Shown here: piece by piece, positions 2,361-64,000 of the stretch | Numbering within the stretch: position 1 is the stretch's first letter | Layout of the letters: each line of letters opens with the position of its first letter | Source: Paralcaligenes ureilyticus | GTDB lineage: Bacteria; Pseudomonadota; Gammaproteobacteria; Burkholderiales; Burkholderiaceae_B | Length of the DNA stretch: 64,000 nt | Reading direction: 5' to 3' | NCBI RefSeq assembly: GCF_004346225.1 | Contig: NZ_SMAJ01000008.1 | Coordinates: 62,001-126,000 of the forward strand | Made by a program: the position numbers and the translations under genes | The notes under the pieces: generated by a model | Database searches by the model: none | What the model was told of the DNA's origin: nothing | What the model saw: only the letters and a program-made list of their open reading frames with translations

Positions 2361-3359
2361 ATGGAGCAGCTTGTGCGTACAAATAACATTGTGCTTCTCG
2401 CTACGGGAGGCACAATCTCTATGAAAACAGATGACTCTGGTGCAGCATATAAGGCATTGGGTGCCGCGAGCCTGGGCGAGAATTTGTCAGGGATACCGAA
2501 TGTTTCCATCGAGGCAGTCGATTTTGCCTACGATATCGGCTATAGCGTTACGCATCAGATGATGTTGGCCTTGGCTCACCAGATTACGCAGCTTTGCGAA
2601 CGCGGCGATATCGATGCGGTGGTTGTTTGTCATGGCACGGATGTCATGGAAGAGGTTGCCACATTCGTGGATCTGACCGTTGCAAGCAGAAAGCCGATCG
2701 TGTTTACGGGGGCTATGCGTAATGCATCCATGCCCGGGTACGACGGAGCGCACAATCTGCGGTCTGCCGTTCAGGTTGCGATGAGCGAACACGCGATGGG
2801 CCGCGGCGTGCTCGTATGCATGGATGACACGGTGCATATAGCGCGTGCGATCACCAAGACGCACACTTCCCGAACGTCGACTTTTGATAGCCCGAATTTT
2901 GGAGCCGTAGGGTTTCTCAATAATGACGTTGTGGACTTTAAGGGAACGCCACCGTCATTTAGAAAATATGCCTTGCCCACCCACTTTGTGGATGTGCCTC
3001 TGATCTGGGTATATGCCGGCCAGGACACCTCGTTTCTGTCCCTCGCCTGTTCGCAATCCAAGGGCATTGTGATTGCAGCAAAGGGTATTGGGCATGTTCC
3101 TGCCTGGTGGATGCCTGTGATTCGGCAGGCGATCGCTCAAGACGTGATCGTGGTTGTTGCATCGCAGTGCGGATCGGGCTCAACCAGCTTGCAGTATGGG
3201 GGCGTTGGCAGCGACCGTGACTTATTGGATGCCGGCGTTATTTTCGCTGGCTATCGTCGGCCGCTGCAGGCGCGCATCGAACTGATGTGTGCGATCTCAT
3301 GCGGTCTGGCGCCGGCGGAGATCCGCCGTGCCTTCGCGTCGCCTTTTGGCCTGGAATAA
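2361..3359 (+). CDS. L-asparaginase family protein
   Basis: This 332-residue member of the asparaginase/glutaminase family hydrolyses L-asparagine or a related amide to the acid and ammonia. The first catalytic motif ATGGTIS places the nucleophilic threonine at residue 18. The second motif HGTDVMEE lies at residues 91-98, with Thr93-Asp94, and the lysine of the second triad is in ITKTHT (Lys166). There is no obvious signal peptide, so a cytoplasmic enzyme is likely. It lies three bases after the permease and 90 bases before a nitrilase, so all five genes probably act on an imported amide or nitrile. HGTDV is a small departure from the usual HGTDT, and a relaxed substrate range is possible. 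Confidence 0.93.
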   Translation: MEQLVRTNNIVLLATGGTISMKTDDSGAAYKALGAASLGENLSGIPNVSIEAVDFAYDIGYSVTHQMMLALAHQITQLCERGDIDAVVVCHGTDVMEEVATFVDLTVASRKPIVFTGAMRNASMPGYDGAHNLRSAVQVAMSEHAMGRGVLVCMDDTVHIARAITKTHTSRTSTFDSPNFGAVGFLNNDVVDFKGTPPSFRKYALPTHFVDVPLIWVYAGQDTSFLSLACSQSKGIVIAAKGIGHVPAWWMPVIRQAIAQDVIVVVASQCGSGSTSLQYGGVGSDRDLLDAGVIFAGYRRPLQARIELMCAISCGLAPAEIRRAFASPFGLE

Positions 3360-3449
3360 GGTGCTCGCGCCCGGAAGGGGAGCAACAGGCGGTTCTGGTA
3401 AAAAATGGATTGTTGTCAATCAGATACTGAATAACATGGGAGAATTTGG

Positions 3450-4499
3450 ATGGCAAAGTATGTCAGAGTCGCCGCGGCGCAATTGGCGCCGAAGTTTATG
3501 GATCTGGAAGGCAGCCTGGCAGTTGCCGAGTCTGCCATTGCCGAGGCGGGTCGCAACGGCGCCCAGCTTATCGCTTTTCCGGAAACCTGGCTGCCCGGCT
3601 TTCCCCTTTGGATTTTCCAGGAGACGGGTTGGAGAGATGAGCGTCACAAGCGCGCCTATGCGCATTTGCTGGCCAATTCCATAGAGCTCGGCGGTCCGGC
3701 GTTGAACCGGCTGTGTCGTGCGGCGCGAAATGCCGGAGTCACTGTGGTAATGGGCGCCAACGAACGCGACAGCCAGGCGTCCCGCGAGACGCTGTACAAC
3801 TCGCTGATCTACATATCTTCCGACGGCGAAATTCTGGGCGTACGCCGCAAGCTGAAACCTACGCACGTTGAGCGGGTAATCTGGGGTCAAGGTGACGGTA
3901 GTGGCATCCGCGTCTATGAAACGAGCGCGGGGCGCGTTGGCGGTTCGATTTGCTGGGAGCACTGGATGCCGCTCAACCGGTTTGCAATGCACGCACTCGG
4001 AGAGCAGATTCACGTTGGCGTCTGGCCAGACGTTGCCGAACACAATGAGATCGCGGCACGGCACTACGCATTTGAAGGAAGATGTTTCGTTATTGCCATG
4101 GGAACAATTCTTCGTCGCACCGATGTTCAGGTCGATTTCGGTGTGCCGATCGAGACGCTTCGCAGTACGTCGGGCATGAGCCAGCGTGATGACTTCATAC
4201 TTGCCGGCGGCACAGGCATCATCGGGCCCGACGGCAAGTGGGTCGTCGAGCCAGTGACGTACGAGGAAAAAATCATCTACGCCGATCTGGACCTGGACCG
4301 GGTGACCGAAGAGAAGCTATCTCTGGATACGGCAGGCCATTACAACCGCCCCGACATTTTCCAGCTCATCGTTGATGACCGTCCGAAAGAACAGATCTAT
4401 TGGGCATCGAAAAGGGCGCCTGGCCCGTATGAGGATGGCGTGAAACAGGAGGGCATCAAGCCGGGCTTTGTTGACCCTCAGAATGCCAAGGGTGGCTAA
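3450..4499 (+). CDS. Nitrilase (carbon-nitrogen hydrolase family)
   Basis: This 349-residue enzyme converts a nitrile to the carboxylic acid and ammonia. The Glu-Lys-Cys triad is visible: Glu45 in FPETWLPGFPLW, Lys134 in RRKLKPTHVER, and Cys168 in GGSICWEHWMPL. The last two motifs are characteristic of true nitrilases rather than of amidases or ureido hydrolases of the same superfamily. A GGGAG ribosome site precedes the ATG by eight bases. Lying next to an asparaginase, one economical reading is a beta-cyanoalanine type route, in which nitrile goes to amide or acid and then to aspartate and ammonia. An arylaliphatic substrate is equally possible. Class is certain, substrate is inferred. Confidence 0.94.
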   Translation: MAKYVRVAAAQLAPKFMDLEGSLAVAESAIAEAGRNGAQLIAFPETWLPGFPLWIFQETGWRDERHKRAYAHLLANSIELGGPALNRLCRAARNAGVTVVMGANERDSQASRETLYNSLIYISSDGEILGVRRKLKPTHVERVIWGQGDGSGIRVYETSAGRVGGSICWEHWMPLNRFAMHALGEQIHVGVWPDVAEHNEIAARHYAFEGRCFVIAMGTILRRTDVQVDFGVPIETLRSTSGMSQRDDFILAGGTGIIGPDGKWVVEPVTYEEKIIYADLDLDRVTEEKLSLDTAGHYNRPDIFQLIVDDRPKEQIYWASKRAPGPYEDGVKQEGIKPGFVDPQNAKGG

Positions 4500-4552: not shown

Positions 4553-5695
4553 TTAACAGCCCTTGAACGCTGACAGGAATCGACGGCACCCCTCGACGAT
4601 ACACTCGCGATCGGGGGCAAACGAGAGCCGAATCCGGTACTTCCCACCTGGCCCGAACTCACTGCCCGGACGCACATGCACCCCCTTGGACAGGCACTTG
4701 TCGGCCATTTCCTGGGAATCACCGAACTTCTCGGGATATCCTACCCATAGGTAGAACGCTCCAGAGGGGATGGCAAACTGCAGCGGCCCTTTGTCTTGCA
4801 GGCACGACACCATCAATGCCCGGCGTTCCTGAAACTCTACCCGCATGGCCTCGGCGTCTTGCGATGCTTGTTCAAGCGCCACGGCCGCGGCGCGCTGATT
4901 GGCGGTATTGACTGCGCCGTTGAAGGTTCGATGGACAGTAGACGCCGCAGCAATGAGCTCGGCCGTACCCACCAGGTATCCCACGCGCCAGCCCGTCATG
5001 GCGTACTTCTTGGAGAATGTGCGGCACACGATCAGGCGGTCGGCAAGTTCGGGAACGGACAAAGCCGATACGAACTCGCAGCCATCAAACACGATGCCGT
5101 CATAGGCTTCATCGCTCAGTACGATAAGGTCGGACTCGCGCGCGACCTGCGCCAATTTCCGCCACTCGGCGGCACTGAGAATTGTCCCGGCGGGGTTGGA
5201 TGGCTGGCACACGATGATCATCTTCGCAGCAGGTGCAAGCGACCGAATTTCCTCGAAGTCCAGGCCGCCGTCAGAGTGTCTGCCGAAGCTTTTCACCACG
5301 CCACCGGCCAGTCGGATGGCGTCGGCATACAGCGAATACGTTGGATTCTCGATAAGTACCACATCGCCAGGGTTGACAAGCCCCAGGATGCTGCACGATA
5401 GCCCGGCAGTTCCGCCGTGAGTAATCAGTATATTGTTCGAGCCAGCTAGCGAGGACTGCTCGGGCACAACATGTTTCAGGATGGCTTTCACCAGCAGCGG
5501 GTCGCCGGTCTGCGCCGCGTAATGCGTCAGCCCTTGCGCCAGCGCGTATGCCTGTGCTTGCACGATGCAGCCGGGCGTGACGAACCCGGGCTCCCCGATG
5601 GCAAGCGATACCGCCGACTTGCCACTCCCTGCGAGCAATTTTCCCCGCAGGGAGTTCTTGCGAATCTCTACTACCCTGTTTGCGCTGACATTCAT
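4553..5695 (-). CDS. Pyridoxal-phosphate aminotransferase, class I/II
   Basis: This 380-residue fold-type I aminotransferase moves the amino group of an amino acid to a keto acid. The PLP lysine lies in TFSKKYAMTGWRVGY, the cofactor-binding Asp/Tyr in LSDEAYDGI, and the carboxylate-binding arginine in the C-terminal YRIRLSFA. The ATG at 5695 is preferred because the protein then begins as family members do (MNVSANRVVEI). An in-frame ATG at 5752 would add 19 residues that lack homology-like character. It is the last gene of a five-gene minus-strand operon after the ABC genes and the aldolase, which points to deamination of the imported amino acid. Confidence 0.92.
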   Translation of the reverse strand: MNVSANRVVEIRKNSLRGKLLAGSGKSAVSLAIGEPGFVTPGCIVQAQAYALAQGLTHYAAQTGDPLLVKAILKHVVPEQSSLAGSNNILITHGGTAGLSCSILGLVNPGDVVLIENPTYSLYADAIRLAGGVVKSFGRHSDGGLDFEEIRSLAPAAKMIIVCQPSNPAGTILSAAEWRKLAQVARESDLIVLSDEAYDGIVFDGCEFVSALSVPELADRLIVCRTFSKKYAMTGWRVGYLVGTAELIAAASTVHRTFNGAVNTANQRAAAVALEQASQDAEAMRVEFQERRALMVSCLQDKGPLQFAIPSGAFYLWVGYPEKFGDSQEMADKCLSKGVHVRPGSEFGPGGKYRIRLSFAPDRECIVEGCRRFLSAFKGC

Positions 5696-5811
5696 TTCTT
5701 GGGTATCCAAATTATCAGAAATTAACCAAATCGCCGAGTCATGAGCAAGCATCCTCGCCTCGGTGGGGGGATGCCTACTACCCTACGTTGCGCGATAGGG
5801 TGCTGGTAAAG

Positions 5812-6621
5812 TCATGCTCTTGCATTGAATCGCCCCAGGAAGAGGCGCGTACGTTCCGCCTGAGGATTATCCAGCACGTCGCGCGGTGTTCCCTCTTCTA
5901 CGAGGCCTCCATCGGCCATGAAGACCACGCGGTCGCAGACGTCGTGCGCAAACTGAATCTCGTGGGTGACGACAATCATTGTCATTCCCGATTCTGCGAT
6001 CTCGCGCATGACTGTCAGCACTTCACCTACCAGCTCGGGGTCAAGTGCCGACGTGGGTTCGTCGAACAACATCACATCGGGGTCGGTGGCCAGTGCGCGG
6101 GCAATGGCAACACGCTGCTGTTGTCCACCCGAGAGCTGAGCGGGATAGGCATCGGCGCGCTCGGCCAAGCCAACGCGCCCCAACAGTACGCGTGCGCGCG
6201 CCTTTGCCGTTTCGACGTCCACGCCTTTGACGTGAATCGGGCTTTCAATAATGTTTTCTAAAGCGGTTTTGTGCGCGTACAGATTGAAATGCTGGAAAAC
6301 CATGCCTGTGTGAGCGCGCTGCCGGGCCAGATCCTTGCCGCCGATCCCGCGAAGGACATTACCCTTGCGGCGATAGCCGATATATTCGCCGCAGACTTTT
6401 ATGGTGCCGCCCGTGGGTTTTTCCAGATGATTGATACAGCGCAAAAGCGTGGACTTTCCCGAGCCGGAAGGCCCGATGATCGCCAGCACCTCGCCTGATG
6501 GCACGTTTAGTGAAATATCATTCAATACAACGTTCTCGCCAAACGCCTTGACCAGGTTGCTGATCTCGACCGGGTACTTATAAGGCTTCGGGTTCGACTG
6601 GTTTTGCATGGCCGAATTCAT
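5812..6621 (-). CDS. Amino-acid ABC transporter ATP-binding protein (GlnQ/HisP-like)
   Basis: This 269-residue polar-amino-acid ATPase has Walker [10 protein letters not shown], the Q-loop in MVFQHFNLY, signature LSGGQQQR, Walker [15 protein letters not shown] and a switch histidine in VVTHE. The insertion between Walker A and the Q-loop, with RRKGNVLR, is common in this subfamily. The ATG at 6621 is chosen because an AAGGAAAT ribosome site precedes it. A further upstream start would extend into the permease gene. The first 44 bases overlap the 3' end of the permease, so translation is coupled. It powers uptake by the permease at 6578 and the binding protein at 7513. Confidence 0.94.
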
Positions 6622-7516
6622 CAGGTTGATTTCCTTTTTGCTTGCGTACGGTGGAGCTTCCATACCCTTTACCGACCGCTCGCTCCAGATAGGTCTGGCC
6701 AATCGTTGCAATCGTCACGATGGCCAAATACCATAGACTCGCCACCACCAGCAGAGGTATTACGGCAAAATTTACGGAGTAGATGTCAGTGACGTTACTG
6801 AGCAAATCGCCTCCCGATATGAAGGCTACCAGCGAGGTTGCCTTCAACAGGTTGATCCCCTGGTTACCCGTGGGAGGAATAATGACGCGCATGGCCTGTG
6901 GCAATATGATGCGCGACATGGCCTGTGCTTCGGTCATGCCGGTAGACAAAGCCGCCTCTTTCTGGCCCGAGCTGACCGAAAGAATGCCGGCGCGCACGAT
7001 CTCTGCCATATAGGCGGATTCATGCAACGAAAAGCCAAGAATGGCTGCAGTAAACCCGGAAATCAGAGTATTGGTTGAAAGGACCTGATAGTAATCAGTA
7101 AACGGTATCCCCAATACAAGGTGGGGGAAGAGGGCGGCAATGTTGTACCAGAATATCAACTGCACCAGAAGCGGTGTTCCACGGAAGAACCACAAGTATC
7201 CCACCGCCATGGGAACCATCACGCGGCTGCCCGACAGCCTCATGACCGCAACGATTGTCCCGATGATGACGGCCAGAATCTGGCATAGAACGGTCAGCCC
7301 CAGCGTGACCACAACACCATGCAACACGTGCGGATTGAACAAGTATCCAATCACGACGTTCCACTGCATGTTCTTGTTGTTTAGCAGGCTGTTCCCGATG
7401 AAAATCAGGAAGGCCAGCACCACCAGCCCGATGACAAGCTGCACCGGGTGGCGGCGGGGCGCATACACCAAAGGGCTGGTGTCTGCGGATGTTGCGTTTT
7501 CTATGGAAGGTGTCAC
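6578..7516 (-). CDS. Amino-acid ABC transporter permease (HisM/GlnP-like)
   Basis: This is an inner-membrane permease of about 312 residues, with a cytoplasmic N-terminal tail, roughly five to six membrane segments, and the EAA loop [21 protein letters not shown]. The GTG at 7516 is favoured as start because it overlaps the TGA of the binding-protein gene (GTGA), a standard coupled arrangement. The ATG at 7576 would lie well inside the upstream gene. The C-terminus carries an unusually polar tail of about 30 residues. Only one permease gene is present, so the channel may be a homodimer. Confidence 0.92.
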
Positions 7517-8445
7517 TTTTGCGCCGCCGTGGCATTGATTCCAGGGCCTGTCATTAGCATCTGAGAGACCCCCCATTTGGCCAGGATCTTCTCGGCGGCG
7601 CCCTGTTCATAGATGCTTTGGAAAGCTTTCAGCAGTGCATCACGCAGTTGCGGGTTGTCTTTCGGCAAAGCGGCTCCGTGAAAGCCTTTGGCAAAAAGTT
7701 CGCCTGCCAGTTCCAACTTACCGTTTGAAGCTTTGACCTGGTGCGCGGCAATCGCATAGTCGATCCCGGAGGTATCCACACGGCCGTTCCCGAGTGCCAG
7801 ATACGTATCGGCGCCGCTCGGGTATTTCTTCACATCGACTGCCTTCTTGCCCTCGGTCAAGCATGTCGCAGACTGCTGCTCCGCGAGCTGCACCGAGAGG
7901 CTTCCGGTTGGTCCAGCCGCAATGTGGCCGCACAAATCCGCCAAAGAGTGAATCTTCAGCGGATTGCCCTTGGCCACGACGAGCATCTGGCCGGTTTTCG
8001 TGTAATCAACGAAGTCCACCTGTTCTTCGCGTGCAACGGTATCGGAGAAGTCGGACATGGCCACATCCACGCGCCCCGACAACAGCCCGATGATCATGGA
8101 GCTGAACCCGGTATTGATCACATTGATCTTGACATCCAGCACCTTTTCCAGCGCCTGCATGAAATCGGCTTCAATTCCGGTGATCTTTCCATCTTGCCGG
8201 AACAAGTAGGGTGCCAGCGTTGTCTCACCGCCTATTGTCAGAACCTTCTTGTTCCTGATCTTTTCGGGTAGCGCTTTGATGGCGCCTTGATCAGGCTTGA
8301 GGGTAGAGAGAAAATCCGTCGTCAGAAATTCTGTGGTTTGTGCGCCATTGGCCGGAGCATCAGCGGCATAAACGCTCTGGAAAGCGAGGCAACCGAGCGA
8401 CAAAGATACGGTTGCGACAGAAGTGAATAATTTTTTGGTAAGCAT
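7513..8445 (-). CDS. Amino-acid ABC transporter substrate-binding protein
   Basis: This is a 310-residue periplasmic solute-binding protein of family 3. A lysine-containing start and hydrophobic core end at SVYA-AD near residue 28, a normal Sec signal peptide. The mature protein carries the family features VLTIGGETTLAPY, a GIEADFMQAL helix and DVAMSDFSDT. Family 3 members bind polar or acidic amino acids and small amino-acid derivatives. It is second in the operon after the RraA-like gene, which lies 87 bases upstream, and overlaps the permease gene by four bases. The ligand is not readable from sequence. Confidence 0.93.
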   Translation of the reverse strand: MLTKKLFTSVATVSLSLGCLAFQSVYAADAPANGAQTTEFLTTDFLSTLKPDQGAIKALPEKIRNKKVLTIGGETTLAPYLFRQDGKITGIEADFMQALEKVLDVKINVINTGFSSMIIGLLSGRVDVAMSDFSDTVAREEQVDFVDYTKTGQMLVVAKGNPLKIHSLADLCGHIAAGPTGSLSVQLAEQQSATCLTEGKKAVDVKKYPSGADTYLALGNGRVDTSGIDYAIAAHQVKASNGKLELAGELFAKGFHGAALPKDNPQLRDALLKAFQSIYEQGAAEKILAKWGVSQMLMTGPGINATAAQK

Positions 8446-8531: not shown

Positions 8532-9209
8532 TCAATCCACAAAAACGTAGCCCAACTCTTTAAATCGTTCGTCCACCCAAGAGCGGTCTGATTGTTGGTT
8601 CATATATTCTTGCAACTGCTTTTCTTCGCTTTCATGCTTTGCTTTGGAGGCGGCATACACGTCCTCTGCGATTGCCCTTGGCACACATACAAGGCCATCC
8701 TCGTCGCCCAATATCAGATCGCCCGGCTCTATAACCATGCCCTCTATGGCAATCGGCACATTAATTTCCCCTGGCCCGTCTTTATAGGGCCCACGATGTG
8801 TCACCCCGGCGGCAAATACCGGGAAGTCACCTTGATGTATGCTCGCGTAATCGCGAATTGCGCCGTTGATTACGACACCGGCGAGATGCCGTGCCTTGGC
8901 AAGCGCGGCCATCATTTCGCCGAAGAGCGAATTCGTTAAATCACCACCGGCGTCCATGACGACGACATCACCCGGCTCCGCCAGATCGAGGGCCTTGTGC
9001 AGGATGAGATTGTCGCCCGGGCGGCCCTTTACCGTAAAAGCGGGGCCAGCCAGTACACCCTTTGCATGGAATGGGCGGATTTTGCTGCCGGCTGCCGTGA
9101 TGCGCAGCATGTTGTCGCTCACATTCGCCGTAGGTATCGCCTTGAAGCGATCCACTAAATCACGACTTACCCTTTCAAAATGGGTCAATACCCTGATGGC
9201 AACTGGCAT
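8532..9209 (-). CDS. RraA-like protein, probable 4-hydroxy-4-methyl-2-oxoglutarate-type aldolase
   Basis: This 225-residue protein of the RraA/HMG-CHA aldolase family carries the conserved GEMMAAL helix followed after about 20 residues by GAIRD, the Arg-Asp pair that binds substrate and metal in the aldolases. It also has a second family block, GDLILGDEDGLVCVP. Members cleave 4-hydroxy-4-methyl-2-oxoglutarate or 4-carboxy-4-hydroxy-2-oxoadipate into pyruvate plus a second keto acid, while E. coli RraA instead inhibits RNase E. A catabolic operon context favours the aldolase. The ATG at 9209 has GGAGG eight bases upstream; a TTG one codon earlier is less likely. It heads the operon and is divergent from the LysR gene at 9419. 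Confidence 0.85.
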   Translation of the reverse strand: MPVAIRVLTHFERVSRDLVDRFKAIPTANVSDNMLRITAAGSKIRPFHAKGVLAGPAFTVKGRPGDNLILHKALDLAEPGDVVVMDAGGDLTNSLFGEMMAALAKARHLAGVVINGAIRDYASIHQGDFPVFAAGVTHRGPYKDGPGEINVPIAIEGMVIEPGDLILGDEDGLVCVPRAIAEDVYAASKAKHESEEKQLQEYMNQQSDRSWVDERFKELGYVFVD

Positions 9210-9262
9210 CAATCATCCCTCCAAACTATGGATTACCGTAAGTGTGCGCTAGCACTGATATA

Positions 9263-9418: not shown

Positions 9419-10327
9419 ATGGTTACGTTCAAACAGATCGAGGCGCTGTACTGGATTTCGAAACTTGGCAGTTTCAATGCGGCAGCCACGCAACTTCACA
9501 CCACGCAATCGGCGGTTTCAAAGCGCATACAGGAGCTCGAGGGTCGTTTTGATGTAGAGATTTTCGACCGCAGCAGGCGTTCGGCATGCCTGACTCCGAA
9601 AGGCGAAGAAGTTCTGCGTTCGGCACAGCTGTTGCTGGATACGCGCAATACGTTGCTGGCACAGTTGGGTGCGCGGGAAGTCATGTTCCGCCGGCTGAGG
9701 CTCGGCGTGACTGAATTGACCGCACTGACGTGGCTGCCTATTTTGATATCCAGCCTAAGGAAGCAGTTTCCGCAATTGGAGATCGAACCAGAAGTGGGAT
9801 TGAGCCAAGCGTTGTATGAGCGGCTTGTCGACAATACCATCGACCTCATCATCGTGCCGGATACGTTTGGCGATACGCGCTTCATGATGACACCCCTTGG
9901 CAAGATAGAGAATGCCTGGATGTTCGCTTCCGGCGTCATGCAGGCCGAGCGCAGCTATACGTTATCGGAAATTGCCGAACAGACCGTGATTGCACAGGGC
10001 AAAGATTCGGGTATGGGGATTGTATATAGTCAGTGGTTTCTCGCGAACGGTGTTGAAACGCCGAAGGTGATCGTGTGCAGCAATCTCGTGGCGCAGATTG
10101 GCTTGACGGTGTCCGGCCTTGGCGTGAGCTACCTTCCAAAAGAGTGCCTGTCGCATCTCGTCAAGAAGAAGATTTTACGAATTGCCAAAACGTCGCCCCG
10201 GCTTCCGATAATGAACTACGTCGCTATGTATCGGCCCGCCCAGCCCATTGACTTTCACGGCGAAGTCGCACGCATGTGCCAGGAATGCTGTGATTTCTCA
10301 CGGTTGGTTCTGCAGGCCCCAAATTGA
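9419..10327 (+). CDS. LysR-family transcriptional regulator
   Basis: This 302-residue regulator has an N-terminal winged helix (residues 1-60, with GSFNAAATQLHTTQSAVSKR as the recognition region) followed by a two-lobed effector domain. It is divergent from the aldolase/transporter operon and so probably controls it. It is clearly related to the LysR protein at 59863: both share the YWISKLG start region, the VTEL..LTWLP block, LTVSGLGVSYLPK-type motif and a CxxxCDFS ending. The paralogy implies that both sense chemically similar keto or amino acids. Confidence 0.93.
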   Translation: MVTFKQIEALYWISKLGSFNAAATQLHTTQSAVSKRIQELEGRFDVEIFDRSRRSACLTPKGEEVLRSAQLLLDTRNTLLAQLGAREVMFRRLRLGVTELTALTWLPILISSLRKQFPQLEIEPEVGLSQALYERLVDNTIDLIIVPDTFGDTRFMMTPLGKIENAWMFASGVMQAERSYTLSEIAEQTVIAQGKDSGMGIVYSQWFLANGVETPKVIVCSNLVAQIGLTVSGLGVSYLPKECLSHLVKKKILRIAKTSPRLPIMNYVAMYRPAQPIDFHGEVARMCQECCDFSRLVLQAPN

Positions 10328-57509: not shown

Positions 57510-58382
57510 TTATCGCAGGAATTTACGTTCCAGGCCGCGCATATGCTCATCGCCTTGCAAGGCAATGATGTCCTTGACGGAAGGAATGGTGTTTTCCACC
57601 CCCTGGATGCCGCCGTCACTGCGAATTTGCGCGAAAACTTTTCGCATCGCGCCCACTGCCGCGCGGATGGCATGGTTGCCGTAGATCACGATACGCACCT
57701 TGCCTCGCGCCGCAATATCGGCTTCGGTGAGTTGCGGGTAGGCCGTGGGCACCAGCACCAAAGGAATGTGGCCCGGCCATGCGTCAATGAAGGCCAGTAT
57801 CTCGTCGGGCGTCTTCTGTTTTGAATGAATCAGGATCGCATCGGCGCCCGCTTCTTCGTAGGCCAGGCCTCGCTTGAGCGCCTCTTCCTGGCCGAGGCCG
57901 GCGATCAGCGCTTCGACGCGTGCGATCACCACAAAATCCTTGTCCTTTCTGGCCTCGGCGGCAGCGGCGATTTTCCCCTGGAATTCTTCGATACGCACCA
58001 ATTCCTGGCGCCCCTGCGCACGCAGGCTGGTGTCTTTCGGAAAGGTCTTGTCTTCCATGACGATAGCCGACGCGCCGGCCGCCTCGAATTGCGGGACGAT
58101 GTAGCCGACGCTTACCGCATTGCCAAAGCCTGTATCGATGTCCGCAATAAGGGGAATCGAAACCACCGAGGATATGGCGCGCATCATCTCCAAATGCGTG
58201 CTCATGGAAAGAATGCTGGCATCGGGCAGGGCATAGCTGGCCGAAAGCTCGAAGCCACTACCCCAGATGCCGCTGAAGCCGGCCTCGTCAGCCAGCTTTG
58301 CCGCCAGCGGATTGTGCGCGGCCATCGCCGTAAAAAGCCTGTCGCCCGATAGGGCGGCGCGCAGGGTCTGGTTCTTGGTCAT
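57510..58382 (-). CDS. pphA: Phosphonopyruvate hydrolase (PEP mutase/ICL superfamily)
   Basis: This 290-residue protein splits the carbon-phosphorus bond of phosphonopyruvate to give pyruvate and phosphate. The key block reads EDKTFPKDTS (residues 110-119), while PEP mutases have EDKxxxxxNS. Replacement of that Asn by Thr118 is the feature of the Variovorax hydrolase as I recall it, and the length of 290 also agrees. Metal-binding Asp81 and Asp83 lie in LIADIDTGFGN. The ATG at 58382 is used because homology begins there. No phosphonate transporter is adjacent, so its substrate source lies elsewhere. Confidence 0.82.
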   Translation of the reverse strand: MTKNQTLRAALSGDRLFTAMAAHNPLAAKLADEAGFSGIWGSGFELSASYALPDASILSMSTHLEMMRAISSVVSIPLIADIDTGFGNAVSVGYIVPQFEAAGASAIVMEDKTFPKDTSLRAQGRQELVRIEEFQGKIAAAAEARKDKDFVVIARVEALIAGLGQEEALKRGLAYEEAGADAILIHSKQKTPDEILAFIDAWPGHIPLVLVPTAYPQLTEADIAARGKVRIVIYGNHAIRAAVGAMRKVFAQIRSDGGIQGVENTIPSVKDIIALQGDEHMRGLERKFLR

Positions 58383-58443
58383 CGCGGTATTTCCTGTGTA
58401 TGGTGATGGTGCGTTTCTGTAGGGGTCTTGGCCGCCAACGATT

Positions 58444-59862: not shown

Positions 59863-60759
59863 CTAGCTCTGTTTGGAGAAATCGCACAGGTCTTCGCACA
59901 TGCGGATAATGCTTTGGTCGAAGCTTGTGCTGCTAGCTTCGCTATGGACCACAATATTGTATTGAATGTCCGGAATGGGTTGCTCGGTGGTAATGATTTT
60001 TAAAGTGCCATTTTCAACCAGATCTGAAAAATAGAGTTTGGGAAGATAGCTGATTCCCAGCCCTGATACGGTCAATGAGGCCAGAGTCATGAGGCTGTTC
60101 CCGGCAAAAAGCTTCTTGCCCGAGACTCCGGCCGATTTAAGCCATGTGTCGCACACTGCGTCGACTCCCGAGCGTCCGTTTTGAGTCAGTATCGGGTAGC
60201 GCATTAAATCTTTCAACGAAACATGGTCTCTTCCCTTGAAGAGCGTGGGGCTGGACATCCATTCAAGCTTCATTTTTTGAAGAGGCCTGGAAGTGACCTC
60301 CGGATCTTGCATCACAAGGGGCACGACAATCAGGTCCAGGCCGCCCGCCAGCAATTTATCCACCAGAGCGGTACTGACATCGATTTCGGGCTCGAACGTT
60401 ACCTCCGGGTAATGGCCTTTTAAGTCGGCCAGCAGTTGCGGCAGCCAGGTCAGCCCCACCAGCTCGGTGACGCCGATTCTGTAGCGATGTACTAATGCTT
60501 CCGATCTATTTAACTGTTCCATGTAGTCGTCGCACAGGACGATGATTTTTTCCGCAACGATGGCCAGATTGAGGCCGTCTCGGGTAAGCCGGCTGTGCCG
60601 AGCCTGGCGATCCAGCAAGTCAACCCCGACCAGCGATTCGATTTCGTTGATTCTTTTCGAAATCGTCGATTCGCTGATGTGCAATTTTTTTGCCGCGGCC
60701 GAGTATGTGCCCAGCTTGGATATCCAATAGATGGCTTGAAGTTGTTTAAGACTGAACAT
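59863..60759 (-). CDS. LysR-family transcriptional regulator
   Basis: This 298-residue regulator starts MFSLKQLQAIYWISKLGTYS, with its recognition helix in LHISESTISKRINEIESL. The effector domain carries GVTELVGLTWLP. It closely resembles the LysR at 9419 in the same landmarks and probably arose from the same ancestor. It is divergent from the LeuC/LeuD-like operon and is its likely regulator. The longer start at 60804 lacks support, so the ATG at 60759 is used. Confidence 0.93.
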   Translation of the reverse strand: MFSLKQLQAIYWISKLGTYSAAAKKLHISESTISKRINEIESLVGVDLLDRQARHSRLTRDGLNLAIVAEKIIVLCDDYMEQLNRSEALVHRYRIGVTELVGLTWLPQLLADLKGHYPEVTFEPEIDVSTALVDKLLAGGLDLIVVPLVMQDPEVTSRPLQKMKLEWMSSPTLFKGRDHVSLKDLMRYPILTQNGRSGVDAVCDTWLKSAGVSGKKLFAGNSLMTLASLTVSGLGISYLPKLYFSDLVENGTLKIITTEQPIPDIQYNIVVHSEASSTSFDQSIIRMCEDLCDFSKQS

Positions 60760-60901
60760 GACACTTTTTATGGCAGGGTGAATGGTTGAAAAATTTTCCT
60801 GCAATCGCCGGAATATTTATCGCTTTAGCTTTAAGGAACGCCAGGTTACATTCAGCCGTACATACTTTATAGCAAGAATTTCCAATAAGCTCGGAGACGG
60901 C

Positions 60902-62164
60902 ATGAGGGGGCAGACAATTGCTGAAAAAATACTGTCTAGGGCAGCGGTCAAGGAAGTATACGCAGGCGACATCGTAAATTGCCAGCCCGATCTGGCGATG
61001 GCCACAGATGGCTCTTTCCCGATGGCCATCGATTATTTGGCCCAAATGGAACCGGGCACGATGCGGCCGATGTTTCCGCAGCGAATAATATTGGCTTTGG
61101 ATCACTATGACAACAGCTCGGGGCCCAAGGCGCTCGCCTTGCAAGGCAAGGCCAGGGCATATGCCAGGGAATTCGGCCTTACCTTGTTCGACGCGGGTGA
61201 GGGCGTAGGGCATCAGTTGATGCTGGAGTCGGGCCGGATTCGCCCCGGCATGCTGGTGGTGGGCGCCGATTCCCATTCCACGACATATAGTGCGTTAAAT
61301 TGTTTTGCCACCGGTATCGGGTCGTCGGATTTGGCCGGCATCCTGTTGTGCGGTGCATTATGGCTTCGCGTCCCGGAAACGATAAAGGTCGAGTTCAGCG
61401 GGTTATTGAACAAAGGGGTGTCGGGCAAGGACATTGCCCTTTGTCTGGCCAAACGCTTCGAAAATGGCGGGGCGAATTATTTCGCCCTGGAATTTCATGG
61501 GGGCGGGCTGGCGCAATTACCCATGAATGATCGCATTGTGATCTCGAACATGGCGGTCGAGTATGGTGCGAAAGCAGCCATGTTTCAGTTTGACGAAATC
61601 ACCGGCGCCTGGTTGCGGGCCAACAAAACCTATGATTGCCAGGCGGTGACGCCGGATGGGGACGCGCGCTATTCAAAAACGATAACTGTCGATTTGAGCG
61701 GCATTGTGCCCCAGCTTGCGTGCCCGCACAGTGTCGATAACGTGGTGCCGGCGGACGAAGTCGATACTCTTAGAGTGGATACGGTGTACATCGGTACCTG
61801 CACGGCCGGGCGCTACGAAGATTTCTATGATGTCTTCAAAATTCTGAAAGAAAATGGGGGGCCGAGCCCTCACGTTCAGTTGATCGTAACGCCTGCGTCG
61901 CAAATGGTTTATGAACAATTGAAAGCAAGCGGTGTTTTAGACGAGTTTGTACGATATGGCGCGCTGTTGCAGCCGCCTGGCTGCGGCTCGTGTTGCGGGA
62001 CGGCGGGATACAGGCCCAGAGACGGCGAAGTCATCATTTCGACGGCTAACCGCAATTTCAAAGGCCGGATGGGCAACGCCAATTGTTTTATTTATTTGGC
62101 CTCTCCCCAGACGTGTGCACAGGTTGCATGCACGGGCTTTATAAATAAAGGGGCGCTTCAATGA
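60902..62164 (+). CDS. Aconitase-family hydro-lyase, large subunit (LeuC-like)
   Basis: This 420-residue iron-sulfur dehydratase has GADSHSTTYSALNCFATGIG and the three cluster cysteines C300 (IGTCTAGR), C361 and C364 (PGCGSCCG), spaced x60 and x2 as in isopropylmalate isomerases. The end is NRNFKGRMGN. It is somewhat shorter than biosynthetic LeuC and is not beside leu genes, so a different hydroxy-diacid is likely (for example dimethylmalate, citramalate or homocitrate type). The ATG at 60902 has GGAG six bases upstream. Its stop overlaps the small-subunit start by four bases. Confidence 0.9.
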   Translation: MRGQTIAEKILSRAAVKEVYAGDIVNCQPDLAMATDGSFPMAIDYLAQMEPGTMRPMFPQRIILALDHYDNSSGPKALALQGKARAYAREFGLTLFDAGEGVGHQLMLESGRIRPGMLVVGADSHSTTYSALNCFATGIGSSDLAGILLCGALWLRVPETIKVEFSGLLNKGVSGKDIALCLAKRFENGGANYFALEFHGGGLAQLPMNDRIVISNMAVEYGAKAAMFQFDEITGAWLRANKTYDCQAVTPDGDARYSKTITVDLSGIVPQLACPHSVDNVVPADEVDTLRVDTVYIGTCTAGRYEDFYDVFKILKENGGPSPHVQLIVTPASQMVYEQLKASGVLDEFVRYGALLQPPGCGSCCGTAGYRPRDGEVIISTANRNFKGRMGNANCFIYLASPQTCAQVACTGFINKGALQ

Positions 62165-62682
62165 ACCCGTTCGAACTCAATCGGATCGAGTGTCGCGTAA
62201 GGCGATTTCCGGATAGCGTCAGCACAGACTACATCATTGCGTCGAGCAGGAAGAAAGAAACGATCGACACCGATGAATTGAAAAAATATGTTTTTGAGGA
62301 TATTAATCCTGGGTTTTTTTACAGCATAAAGCCGGGAGACATCGTTGTCGGTGGGACCAATTTTGGTTGCGGCTCCGCCATGGAGATCGCTGTAACGGTG
62401 TTATTGGCAGCAGGAATCCGGATTGTCATAGCGGAAAGCTTTGCCCGCACATTTCTTCGTAACGCTCTGAATAATGGGCTCATTGCGCTAACGACGGGTA
62501 CAGGCGCCCTCAAGGAAGGCGACAAGATCAGGTTATCGGGGATGAGTACGGGAACCGTAAAGGTCGAATTGGCCGACGGAGATGCCCTTGTGTGCGACAC
62601 GATTCCTCCTTTCATGCTCGATATCCTGGAAAGGGGAGGCCTCGTGCCTTATTTGAAAGCTAACAAGCGATTTGTAGATTAA
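62161..62682 (+). CDS. Aconitase-family hydro-lyase, small subunit (LeuD-like)
   Basis: This 173-residue swivel domain has STDYIIASSRK at the start, GGTNFGCGSAMEIAVTVLL (with AMEIA where LeuD has SREHA, altering the Arg that contacts substrate), and VIAESFARTFLRNALNNGL. It completes the active site of the large subunit encoded just upstream. The replaced Arg/Glu positions argue that it acts on a substrate other than isopropylmalate. It starts in the ATGA overlap. Confidence 0.88.
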   Translation: MNPFELNRIECRVRRFPDSVSTDYIIASSRKKETIDTDELKKYVFEDINPGFFYSIKPGDIVVGGTNFGCGSAMEIAVTVLLAAGIRIVIAESFARTFLRNALNNGLIALTTGTGALKEGDKIRLSGMSTGTVKVELADGDALVCDTIPPFMLDILERGGLVPYLKANKRFVD

Positions 62683-62707
62683 TCACCATTGACCAGAGGA
62701 GACATGC

Positions 62708-63616
62708 ATGAACACGAAAGGCTTTACCATTAAAGCGGCCGTATTGGCGCTGACGCTGGGTCTTGCAGCAGGCGCAACGGCGGCCGAGCTAAGCGGTACG
62801 CTTGCCAAGATCAAAGACAATAATCTGATTGTCCTGGGCTATCGAGAGTCGTCGATACCTTTGTCGTATGTTGACGCCGGCACGAATCAGGTGGTTGGGT
62901 ATTCCCACGAAATCGCCCTGAAGGTTGTCGACGCCATCAAGGCCGATTTGAAGCTGCCGAATCTGAAAGTCAGAGAAATCCCGATTACCGCGCAAAACAG
63001 AATCTCCCTGATGCAAAACGGGACTATCGATCTAGGCTGCAACGGAACGACTAATAACGAAGCGCGACGCCGTCAGGTGGCTTTTTCGAACACGATTGCC
63101 ATTACGGAAACACAATTGCTCACGAAGAAAACCAGCGGTATTCACGATATTGCCGATTTGAAAGGGAAGTCGGTCGCGGTAACGGCAGGCAGCACTTCAG
63201 AAAAATTCATGCGCAATTATGTGCATGAAAAAAACATGGACACCGTCGTGGTAAGCGCTAAAGATCATGCCCAGGCTTTCCTGATGGTTCAAACCAATCG
63301 AGCCGCCGCGTTTTTCATGGATACAGACGTGCTGTCTTCGCTCATTGGCCAGTCGCCTCATCCGGCCGACTACATCATTACCGGCGAGCCGCAAACCCGT
63401 GAAGCGCTTGCTTGCATGTTTAGAAAAGACGACCCTCAGTTCAAGGCGGTTGTCGATAAAACGATACATGACATGCAGGTTTCAGGCGCTGCCGAAAAGC
63501 TTTACAACAAATGGTTCATGAGCCCGATTCCGCCAGACAATAAATCGTTGAATGTGCCATTGAGTGCCGATATGAAGGCGCTGTTTTCTCATCCGAACGA
63601 TCGTTCCTACAACTGA
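62708..63616 (+). CDS. Amino-acid ABC transporter substrate-binding protein (GltI-like)
   Basis: This 302-residue family-3 binding protein has a signal peptide ending ATAA-EL (about residue 27). YVDAGTNQVVGYSHEIALKVVD and NRISLMQNGTIDLGCNGTTNNEARR are hallmarks of the glutamate/aspartate GltI group. It starts 25 bases after the LeuD-like gene with its own GAGGAG. Its permeases would lie elsewhere or to the right of the window. It brings in an acidic amino acid that may feed the hydro-lyase pathway after transamination. Confidence 0.92.
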   Translation: MNTKGFTIKAAVLALTLGLAAGATAAELSGTLAKIKDNNLIVLGYRESSIPLSYVDAGTNQVVGYSHEIALKVVDAIKADLKLPNLKVREIPITAQNRISLMQNGTIDLGCNGTTNNEARRRQVAFSNTIAITETQLLTKKTSGIHDIADLKGKSVAVTAGSTSEKFMRNYVHEKNMDTVVVSAKDHAQAFLMVQTNRAAAFFMDTDVLSSLIGQSPHPADYIITGEPQTREALACMFRKDDPQFKAVVDKTIHDMQVSGAAEKLYNKWFMSPIPPDNKSLNVPLSADMKALFSHPNDRSYN

Positions 63617-63702
63617 TTAATTACTTACTTGGAAGCTGCCGGGAGGCAAGCAATGTCTGTTTGCCCTCCACCTTTCGCTACTCTCGATTATCCAGGCGTT
63701 TT
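63617..63702. promoter_or_regulatory. Spacer with imperfect hairpin before the aminotransferase gene
   Basis: GGGAGGCAA and TTTGCCCTCC pair with one bulge (about 63639-63668). No T-run follows. It may partially terminate or stabilise the transcript between the binding-protein and aminotransferase genes. Confidence 0.3.
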
Positions 63703-64000
63703 ATGATCACCATTTCCAGCCGATTACAGCGTATCAAACCTTCTCCCAGCTCCATGGCCGGCCAGCGAGCCAGGGAGCTGCGGGAGCAGGGCAAAGATGT
63801 GGTGGGACTGACCTCCGGAGAGCCCGATTTCGACACCCCGGAAAATATCAGGGAGGCGGCGTATCAAGCCATGGAGGATGGCAAAACCAAATACACGGAC
63901 GTCGGCGGCACACCCGCCTTGAGAGAGGCGATTGCGGATAAATTCCGCAAGGAAAATTCGCTTGAATACAGCAAGGAGCAAGTCATTGTTTGCACCGGCG
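63703..64000 (+). CDS. Aspartate/aromatic aminotransferase, class I (3' end outside window)
   Basis: The first 99 residues of a class-I aminotransferase: MITISSRLQRIKPSPSSMAG, then GLTSGEPDFDTPENIRE and KYTDVGGTPALREAIADKF. These match AspC/AroJ-like enzymes, which start RxxxIKPSP and contain SGEPDFDTP. The catalytic lysine lies past the window edge. It follows the binding protein by 86 bases in the same direction, so it probably belongs to the same unit and would deaminate the imported amino acid. Confidence 0.88.
   Translation, partial: MITISSRLQRIKPSPSSMAGQRARELREQGKDVVGLTSGEPDFDTPENIREAAYQAMEDGKTKYTDVGGTPALREAIADKFRKENSLEYSKEQVIVCTG

Follow-up and report, generated by a model that had tools for sequence, protein, structure and literature searches.

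A probably catabolic LeuCD-like pair with an altered GSSRE motif and a linked RraA-family aldolase: a possible route for 4-substituted glutamates in Paralcaligenes ureilyticus

We describe an operon built around a LeuC-like and a LeuD-like gene at the end of the window, by which we mean the whole stretch of 64,000 nts analysed here from the 4.37 Mb genome of Paralcaligenes ureilyticus. The operon (locus L009) starts with the LeuC-like large subunit of an aconitase-family hydro-lyase (P0001; 60902..62164, + strand; PF00330, 289 bits) and the LeuD-like small subunit (P0002; 62161..62682, +; PF00694, and 138.9 bits to the LEUD_arch subfamily model with cut-off 109), both intact and overlapping by 4 bases. 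A GltI-like glutamate/aspartate ATP-binding cassette (ABC) substrate-binding protein follows (62708..63616, +; SBP_bac_3, and 332 bits to NCBIfam PRK10797, cut-off 375), and then a class I, PRK06107-like aminotransferase (63703..64908, +), which leaves the window at 64000. Beyond the window we find a GltJ-like permease (64967-65704), a GltK-like permease (65707-66423) and an RraA-family class II aldolase (66413-67111). From the LeuC-like gene through RraA the gaps are, gene by gene, -4, 25, 86, 58, 2 and -11 bases, and no ATPase gene lies within this operon. Divergent from it is a LysR-type regulator (59863..60759, -; Pfam HTH_1 and LysR_substrate), whose start we take as the ATG at 60759, the open reading frame list having a TTG at 60804. 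The sequence between regulator and operon (60760..60901) is a putative divergent promoter region, with GGAG before the ATG at 60902. The LysR, LeuC-like, LeuD-like, GltI-like and aminotransferase genes named in the original prediction are all present where it placed them, and its suggestion to look past 64000 for permeases and a lyase led to the two permeases and the RraA-family aldolase.

The small subunit departs from its relatives at the active site. Residues G69-C-G-S72-A73-M74-E75-I76-A77 stand where the aligned LeuD and HacB proteins of M. jannaschii and P. horikoshii have GSSRE(H/S/Q)A, so that S72-A73-M74-E75-I76-A77 (62374..62391, +) replaces S-S-R-E-H-A. In aconitase numbering the base Ser642 is kept, Ser643 becomes Ala, Arg644 becomes Met, and the following His becomes Ile. 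The large subunit has the residues expected of the family: C300, C361 and C364 align to aconitase Cys358, Cys421 and Cys424; H104, D123, S124 and H125 to His147, Asp165, Ser166 and His167; and R384 and R389 to Arg447 and Arg452. In the aconitase superfamily Ser642 is the general base and Cys358/421/424 are the cluster ligands (PMC8184944), and the GSSRE motif of the small domain has been described (PMC7308503). The pair thus has the three cluster cysteines, the Ser base and the His/Asp/Ser/Arg set of the large subunit, and lacks GSSRE with its Arg644. Because the catalytic Ser, the cluster ligands and the other large-subunit residues are kept, the alignments indicate intact catalytic machinery with one substrate-side residue changed. 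The column of His104, equivalent to His147, has His in the window and Cupriavidus proteins and Phe in two Gemmatimonadota members of the clade described below (L052, L056).

The original prediction of altered substrate residues holds for AMEIA. These residues sit in the superfamily-wide GSSRE substrate-binding and catalytic motif and not in what is commonly termed the specificity loop; the actual recognition loop is changed too. This loop reads TDYIIASSRKK (62224..62256, +), compared with TDAILPARYLVYT in LeuD (ARYLVYT) and TDAIIPGPYLRTT in HacB (GPYLRTT), and its RK is invariant in the clade alignment. An AlphaFold2 model of the LeuD-like protein (predicted local distance difference test score 82) matches archaeal LeuD and HacB with Z 21 and a root mean square deviation of 2.0-2.4 over 162-165 residues, and aconitase domain 4 with Z 17.8. 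By their PDB titles, the matches include the aconitase mutants S642A and R644Q (1c96, 1b0m).

Several lines support a catabolic rather than a leucine-synthetic role for the pair, as the original prediction had proposed. The genome has a separate leuC-leuD-leuB cluster at C2, whose proteins reach 785, 255 and 478 bits and pass the curated equivalog models. The window LeuC-like protein is above the NCBIfam subfamily models PRK00402, IPMI_arch and hacA_fam and below the equivalogs leuC (160.8 of 560) and LEU2 (339 of 611); the LeuD-like protein is below the isopropylmalate isomerase (IPMI) equivalogs (leuD, 40 of 116; TIGR02084, 111 of 246). With the equivalog cut-offs failed and a true leuCDB elsewhere, we reject the identity of a leucine-synthesis IPMI. 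We also reject homoaconitase (HacAB), as the pair is below its equivalogs (HacA_Meth, 364 of 550; HacB_Meth, 108 of 230) and the locus is without lysine or coenzyme B context. With the archaeal-type LeuCD/HacAB (PDB 4kp1, 4kp2, 3vba, 2pkp) the window pair shares the fold, the two-subunit architecture, the cluster cysteines and the Ser base, and its small subunit is 36-41% identical to theirs in structural alignment; it differs in GSAME for GSSRE, in the specificity loop, in failing their equivalogs and in having no leucine or lysine context. Aconitase X, also of the superfamily, likewise lacks Arg644 and acts on a substrate that is not of the malate type. Its Thr72 or Val64 is counted among the substrate-specific contacts (PMC8184944), and we equate that residue with the Arg644 position by its place, two residues past the base Ser. 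The identity of aconitase X itself is rejected, because the best models are LeuCD/HacAB with no AcnX model among the matches, and because the sequence, the three-cysteine cluster site and the domain arrangement are those of LeuCD. A second bacterial-type LeuCD pair lies apart from leuCDB (L011; G000:C1:317109-318461), with a LysR regulator and a major facilitator superfamily (MFS) transporter; it is above the LeuCD cut-offs, yet its context looks catabolic.

We name AMExA the small-subunit signature GSAME(I/V)A, and SRE-type the LeuCD relatives with GSSRE. In a scan of genome contigs a single LeuC query gave no match, and the LeuD alignment then recovered the AMExA clade. A plasmid search led to Cupriavidus campinensis, whose large subunit is 55% identical and whose small subunit has GSAMEVA; the operon order there is TctC, LeuC, LeuD, aminotransferase, RraA. 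(The LeuD-like frame of C. campinensis MJ1, L043 near 13349, has an apparent frame shift near its start.) The alignment-based contig scan together with phylum and genus searches, counting loci met twice only once, collects 26 distinct AMExA loci. The carriers are 9/249 Gemmatimonadota, 3/247 Acidobacteriota and 11/60 Cupriavidus genomes, the window, and one Pseudomonadota metagenome-assembled genome (MAG). All 70 other LeuD relatives from the same pattern search have GSSRE, and a signature found in 26/26 clade loci against 0/70 of these relatives is neither chance nor a read error. In the LeuD tree (112 sequences) the AMExA loci occupy one side of a branch with support 100/99, the window LeuD being on a long branch. 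The LeuC tree, in which the motif has no part, again has them as one group, with Shimodaira-Hasegawa-like approximate likelihood ratio test support of 80 when the basal L055 is included and of 100 for the other 24. By these trees and alignments, AMExA LeuCD is a monophyletic subfamily recognisable by GSAME[IV]A.

The partner genes set this subfamily apart. Within 6 kb of the clade loci we find RraA in 23/26 and an aminotransferase in 24/26; either one is found in none of 70 SRE-type LeuD loci from diverse phyla, picked by a shared peptide pattern, and in none of 20 SRE-type loci from Burkholderiaceae. The Fisher p value for the linkage, before correction for relatedness, is 2e-21, which overstates the number of independent events because loci within a genus, such as those of the related Cupriavidus, are not independent. 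A better measure is that three lineages show the linkage with differing aminotransferases and transporters. The Burkholderiaceae modules combine a class I aminotransferase with TctC or with GltI-GltJ-GltK. In those of Gemmatimonadota and Acidobacteriota the aminotransferase is of class V (BhcA/PhnW-like) and the transporter is the glutamate/aspartate symporter GltP; the genes there are arranged either as RraA-AT-GltP-LeuC-LeuD or as RraA-AT-LeuC-LeuD-GltP (AT, aminotransferase). Since both types differ by lineage, it is function and not gene order that is conserved, and this role-for-role replacement by unrelated genes is the strongest hint at a pathway. Among the flanking genes of eight form-B loci there is no further recurrent enzyme.

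Three clade loci are the exceptions for RraA. In L160 it shares the contig with the pair at a distance of approximately 10 kb, with GltP in between. L163 (G1090:C58, 6691-13433) is a second AMExA LeuCD within a genome of the genus Cupriavidus that also has a full set; downstream of it, 5-oxoprolinase/hydantoinase-like A and B genes and TctC take the place of aminotransferase and RraA. We do not count the 5-oxoprolinase/hydantoinase-like genes as part of the module: they flank two Cupriavidus clade loci, with similar A and B genes at the C. campinensis module, but some SRE-type LeuCD loci too. The third exception, L055, the basal clade member from a Pseudomonadota MAG, reads MFS, LeuC, LeuD (AMEIA), 2-hydroxyacid dehydrogenase, aminotransferase and threonine synthase-like, and we return to it below.

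The SRE-type Burkholderiaceae controls have a different carbon-carbon lyase. In 17/20 of them it is a member of the isocitrate lyase (ICL)/phosphoenolpyruvate (PEP)-mutase superfamily, usually with TctC, which is the layout expected for an alkylmalate hydratase and its lyase. With SRE-type pairs next to ICL-superfamily lyases and AMExA pairs next to RraA, the lyase switches together with the motif. Dimethylmaleate hydratase DmdAB and 2,3-dimethylmalate lyase belong to nicotinate fermentation, and DmdAB resembles the window pair as a LeuCD-like hydratase joined to a carbon-carbon lyase in a catabolic operon. The window operon has RraA instead of an ICL-superfamily lyase, and an aminotransferase and amino-acid transporters besides; with RraA as the partner in the clade we reject the DmdAB identity. 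As an observation aside, SREQA-type LeuCD pairs in the window's own family (L171-L190) regularly occur with an ICL/PEP-mutase-superfamily lyase and TctC proteins, and probably form a widespread alkylmalate-type catabolic module that is also misannotated.

The linked RraA proteins carry what the alignments identify as an aldolase-competent motif. The aldolases of 4-hydroxy-4-methyl-2-oxoglutarate and 4-carboxy-4-hydroxy-2-oxoadipate (HMG/CHA aldolases) split 4-hydroxy-4-methyl- and 4-carboxy-4-hydroxy-2-oxo diacids into pyruvate and a 2-oxoacid. All RraA proteins of the clade keep Asn71, His75, Arg123, Asp124 and Lys147 of the HMG/CHA aldolase 3NOJ, which is also the closest solved structure to RraA2. 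Each has in addition an acidic metal-site residue, which stands at position 102 or else three residues past Asp124; we take these two positions to define the two alternative motifs of this family. Arg123 is reported to be essential in HMG/CHA aldolase, and the majority of homologues to carry one or the other of two motifs for metal binding and catalysis (PMC5065237). The RraA of the window operon is above the subfamily model PRK06201 (252 of 231).

Put together, these genes suggest a four-function scheme, to which we give good though not high confidence: import, transamination, hydration or hydroxyl shift, and cleavage by RraA. The GltI/GltJ/GltK-type ABC system would import an acidic 4-substituted glutamate, probably one made by plants, with its ATPase supplied from elsewhere, and the aminotransferase would take off the amino group to leave a 2-oxo-diacid. 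The LeuCD-like [4Fe-4S] enzyme would then add water, or shift a hydroxyl by dehydration and rehydration, to give a 4-hydroxy-4-alkyl-2-oxoglutarate with the new hydroxyl on the carbon bearing the distal carboxylate, which the RraA-family class II aldolase would split into pyruvate and a second 2-oxoacid. The order of steps is inferred, and hydration might come before transamination. Supporting the scheme are the operon content and tight spacing, the conserved linkage, the monophyly, the retained catalytic residues, the loss of Arg644 and the aldolase motif. That loss becomes understandable if the product has an oxalo group (-CO-COO-) where the known LeuCD-type members bind a malate carboxylate, and the sequence change fits such a substrate. 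A similar division of labour is known from the 4-oxalomesaconate hydratases LigJ and GalB, which work with the HMG/CHA aldolase LigK (PDB 3NOJ): the hydratase makes a 4-hydroxy-2-oxo diacid and an RraA-fold aldolase splits it to pyruvate. In the window operon the hydratase is of the aconitase family instead of the LigJ or GalB fold, and the precursor would come from an amino acid and not from an aromatic ring.

As a whole, the best explanation is that the operon degrades an acidic 4-substituted glutamate, with a probability of roughly 0.55. The original prediction of a hydroxy-diacid was right in expecting an altered substrate; an alkylmalate type fits less well than a 4-substituted glutamate in its 2-oxo form. 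Given that SRE-type pairs are the ones found with ICL-superfamily lyases, citramalate and 2,3-dimethylmalate, which the original prediction put forward for assay, are less likely substrates than it supposed. The most economical choice is 4-methyleneglutamate, a plant amino acid abundant in peanut and tulip, because the four functions would then complete the pathway with no further enzyme: 4-methylene-2-oxoglutarate would be hydrated to 4-hydroxy-4-methyl-2-oxoglutarate and split into two pyruvates.

The same genes would serve a classical isomerase equally well. The LeuCD-like enzyme could act on the 2-oxo acid of a 3-hydroxyglutamate-type compound and move the hydroxyl from C3 to C4, with 3-hydroxyglutamate or the legume 3-hydroxy-4-methylglutamate as candidates, and RraA would then release pyruvate with glyoxylate or with a second pyruvate. 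Enzymes of the superfamily normally shift a hydroxyl (PMC8184944), and the catalytic Ser and cluster ligands are retained. This reading calls for a rarer substrate, and no recurrent glyoxylate-handling gene is seen beside the module among the flanking genes of the loci examined; we regard it as unlikely, if the most serious of the alternatives.

A number of points weigh against degradation of a 4-substituted glutamate, and above all against 4-methyleneglutamate, which rests on pathway logic and which we name only tentatively. The library searched yielded no paper that describes how bacteria degrade 4-methyleneglutamate, nor any direct account from the searches on Arg644 and dimethylmaleate hydratase, and no recurrent methyleneglutamate-specific gene, such as 4-methyleneglutaminase, is linked to the clade loci. 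No RraA is found in the 2.5 Mb MAG of L055 at E 1e-20, so the AMEIA motif may predate the link to the aldolase. The window-operon RraA is below curated LigK (TIGR02798, 123 of 304.5) and PRK09262 (141.5 of 179), and other members of its family act as an oxaloacetate decarboxylase or as a dehydratase/decarboxylase in alginate breakdown (PMC8563752). Given a family so mixed in function, RraA could be a decarboxylase or work on an unrelated intermediate, and the LeuCD-like pair could serve a route of another kind by dehydrating an amino acid or a 2-oxo acid; AMExA pairs do occur in other contexts, as seen in L055, which has no RraA, and in the second copy L163 with its OplAB link. The tight linkage, in three lineages, to an RraA with all the aldolase residues makes this decidedly unlikely.

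We give little credence to an ordinary specificity, in which the pair is an isopropylmalate- or citramalate-type isomerase or a DmdAB-like alkylmalate hydratase in an uptake operon and AMExA is tolerated drift. The fold and the subfamily models are indeed the same as for archaeal LeuCD and DmdAB, and an ICL-superfamily phosphonopyruvate hydrolase lies three genes away. However, invariance of AMExA in a clade of three phyla excludes drift, Arg644 is otherwise conserved, the clade and its SRE-type relatives pair with different lyases, and the genome already has leuCDB and a second LeuCD. Least probable is a tricarboxylic substrate, the amino form of 4-oxalomesaconate, which would pass through 4-carboxy-4-hydroxy-2-oxoadipate and end in pyruvate and oxaloacetate, on the pattern of protocatechuate 4,5-cleavage: RraA2 with its relation to 3NOJ and the TctC-type binding proteins at Cupriavidus loci would suit it, but we know of no such amino acid, no aromatic-degradation gene is seen at the loci examined, and the aminotransferase and glutamate/aspartate transporters favour a dicarboxylic one.

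The scheme for a 4-substituted glutamate has a counterpart at the other end of the window. On the - strand are an aminotransferase (4553-5752), a GltL-like ATPase (5812-6711), a permease (6578-7576), a binding protein (7513-8445) and an RraA-family aldolase (8532-9212), with a LysR regulator on the + strand (9419..10327). The kinship seen in the original prediction is borne out: both operons have an aminotransferase, a GltI-type ABC system, RraA and LysR, with 41% identity between the RraA proteins and 36% between the LysR proteins. The 4553 operon with its LysR is kept as a unit in another genome (G196, locus L193) at 52-73% identity. It probably serves a related pathway for acidic amino acids that lacks the hydratase, and a substrate with the 4-hydroxyl already in place, for instance 4-hydroxy-4-methylglutamate, would suit it. 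Type II asparaginase-like and nitrilase-like genes adjoin it (2361-4499); we considered them as amide-releasing steps and set this aside, as they are not conserved with the operon in L193.

The phosphonopyruvate hydrolase near the LeuCD operon (57510-58403, -; TIGR02321, 565 bits with cut-off 374; a relative of PDB 2dua) adjoins an aldo-keto reductase and is a phosphonoalanine-type catabolic gene. We rejected a phosphonate route (FrbA- or HvrDE-like) through this PEP-mutase-family neighbour, because the gene is a clear phosphonopyruvate hydrolase, is divergently placed, and is without counterpart at the other clade loci.

Automatic annotation would call the LeuCD-like genes 3-isopropylmalate dehydratase. 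The GSAME[IV]A subfamily breaks a motif held conserved across IPMI and aconitases, and the same three partner functions are linked to it in three phyla, so that a new activity in a textbook enzyme family could be assayed specifically and cheaply. We put forward as a possibility, and with some reserve, a new catabolic pathway from 4-methyleneglutamate to two pyruvates together with a new aconitase-superfamily activity that arose through the loss of Arg644. If true, it would give bacteria a route for non-protein amino acids of plants, and would suggest a function for RraA-family proteins, which in many cases bear no more than a generic name.

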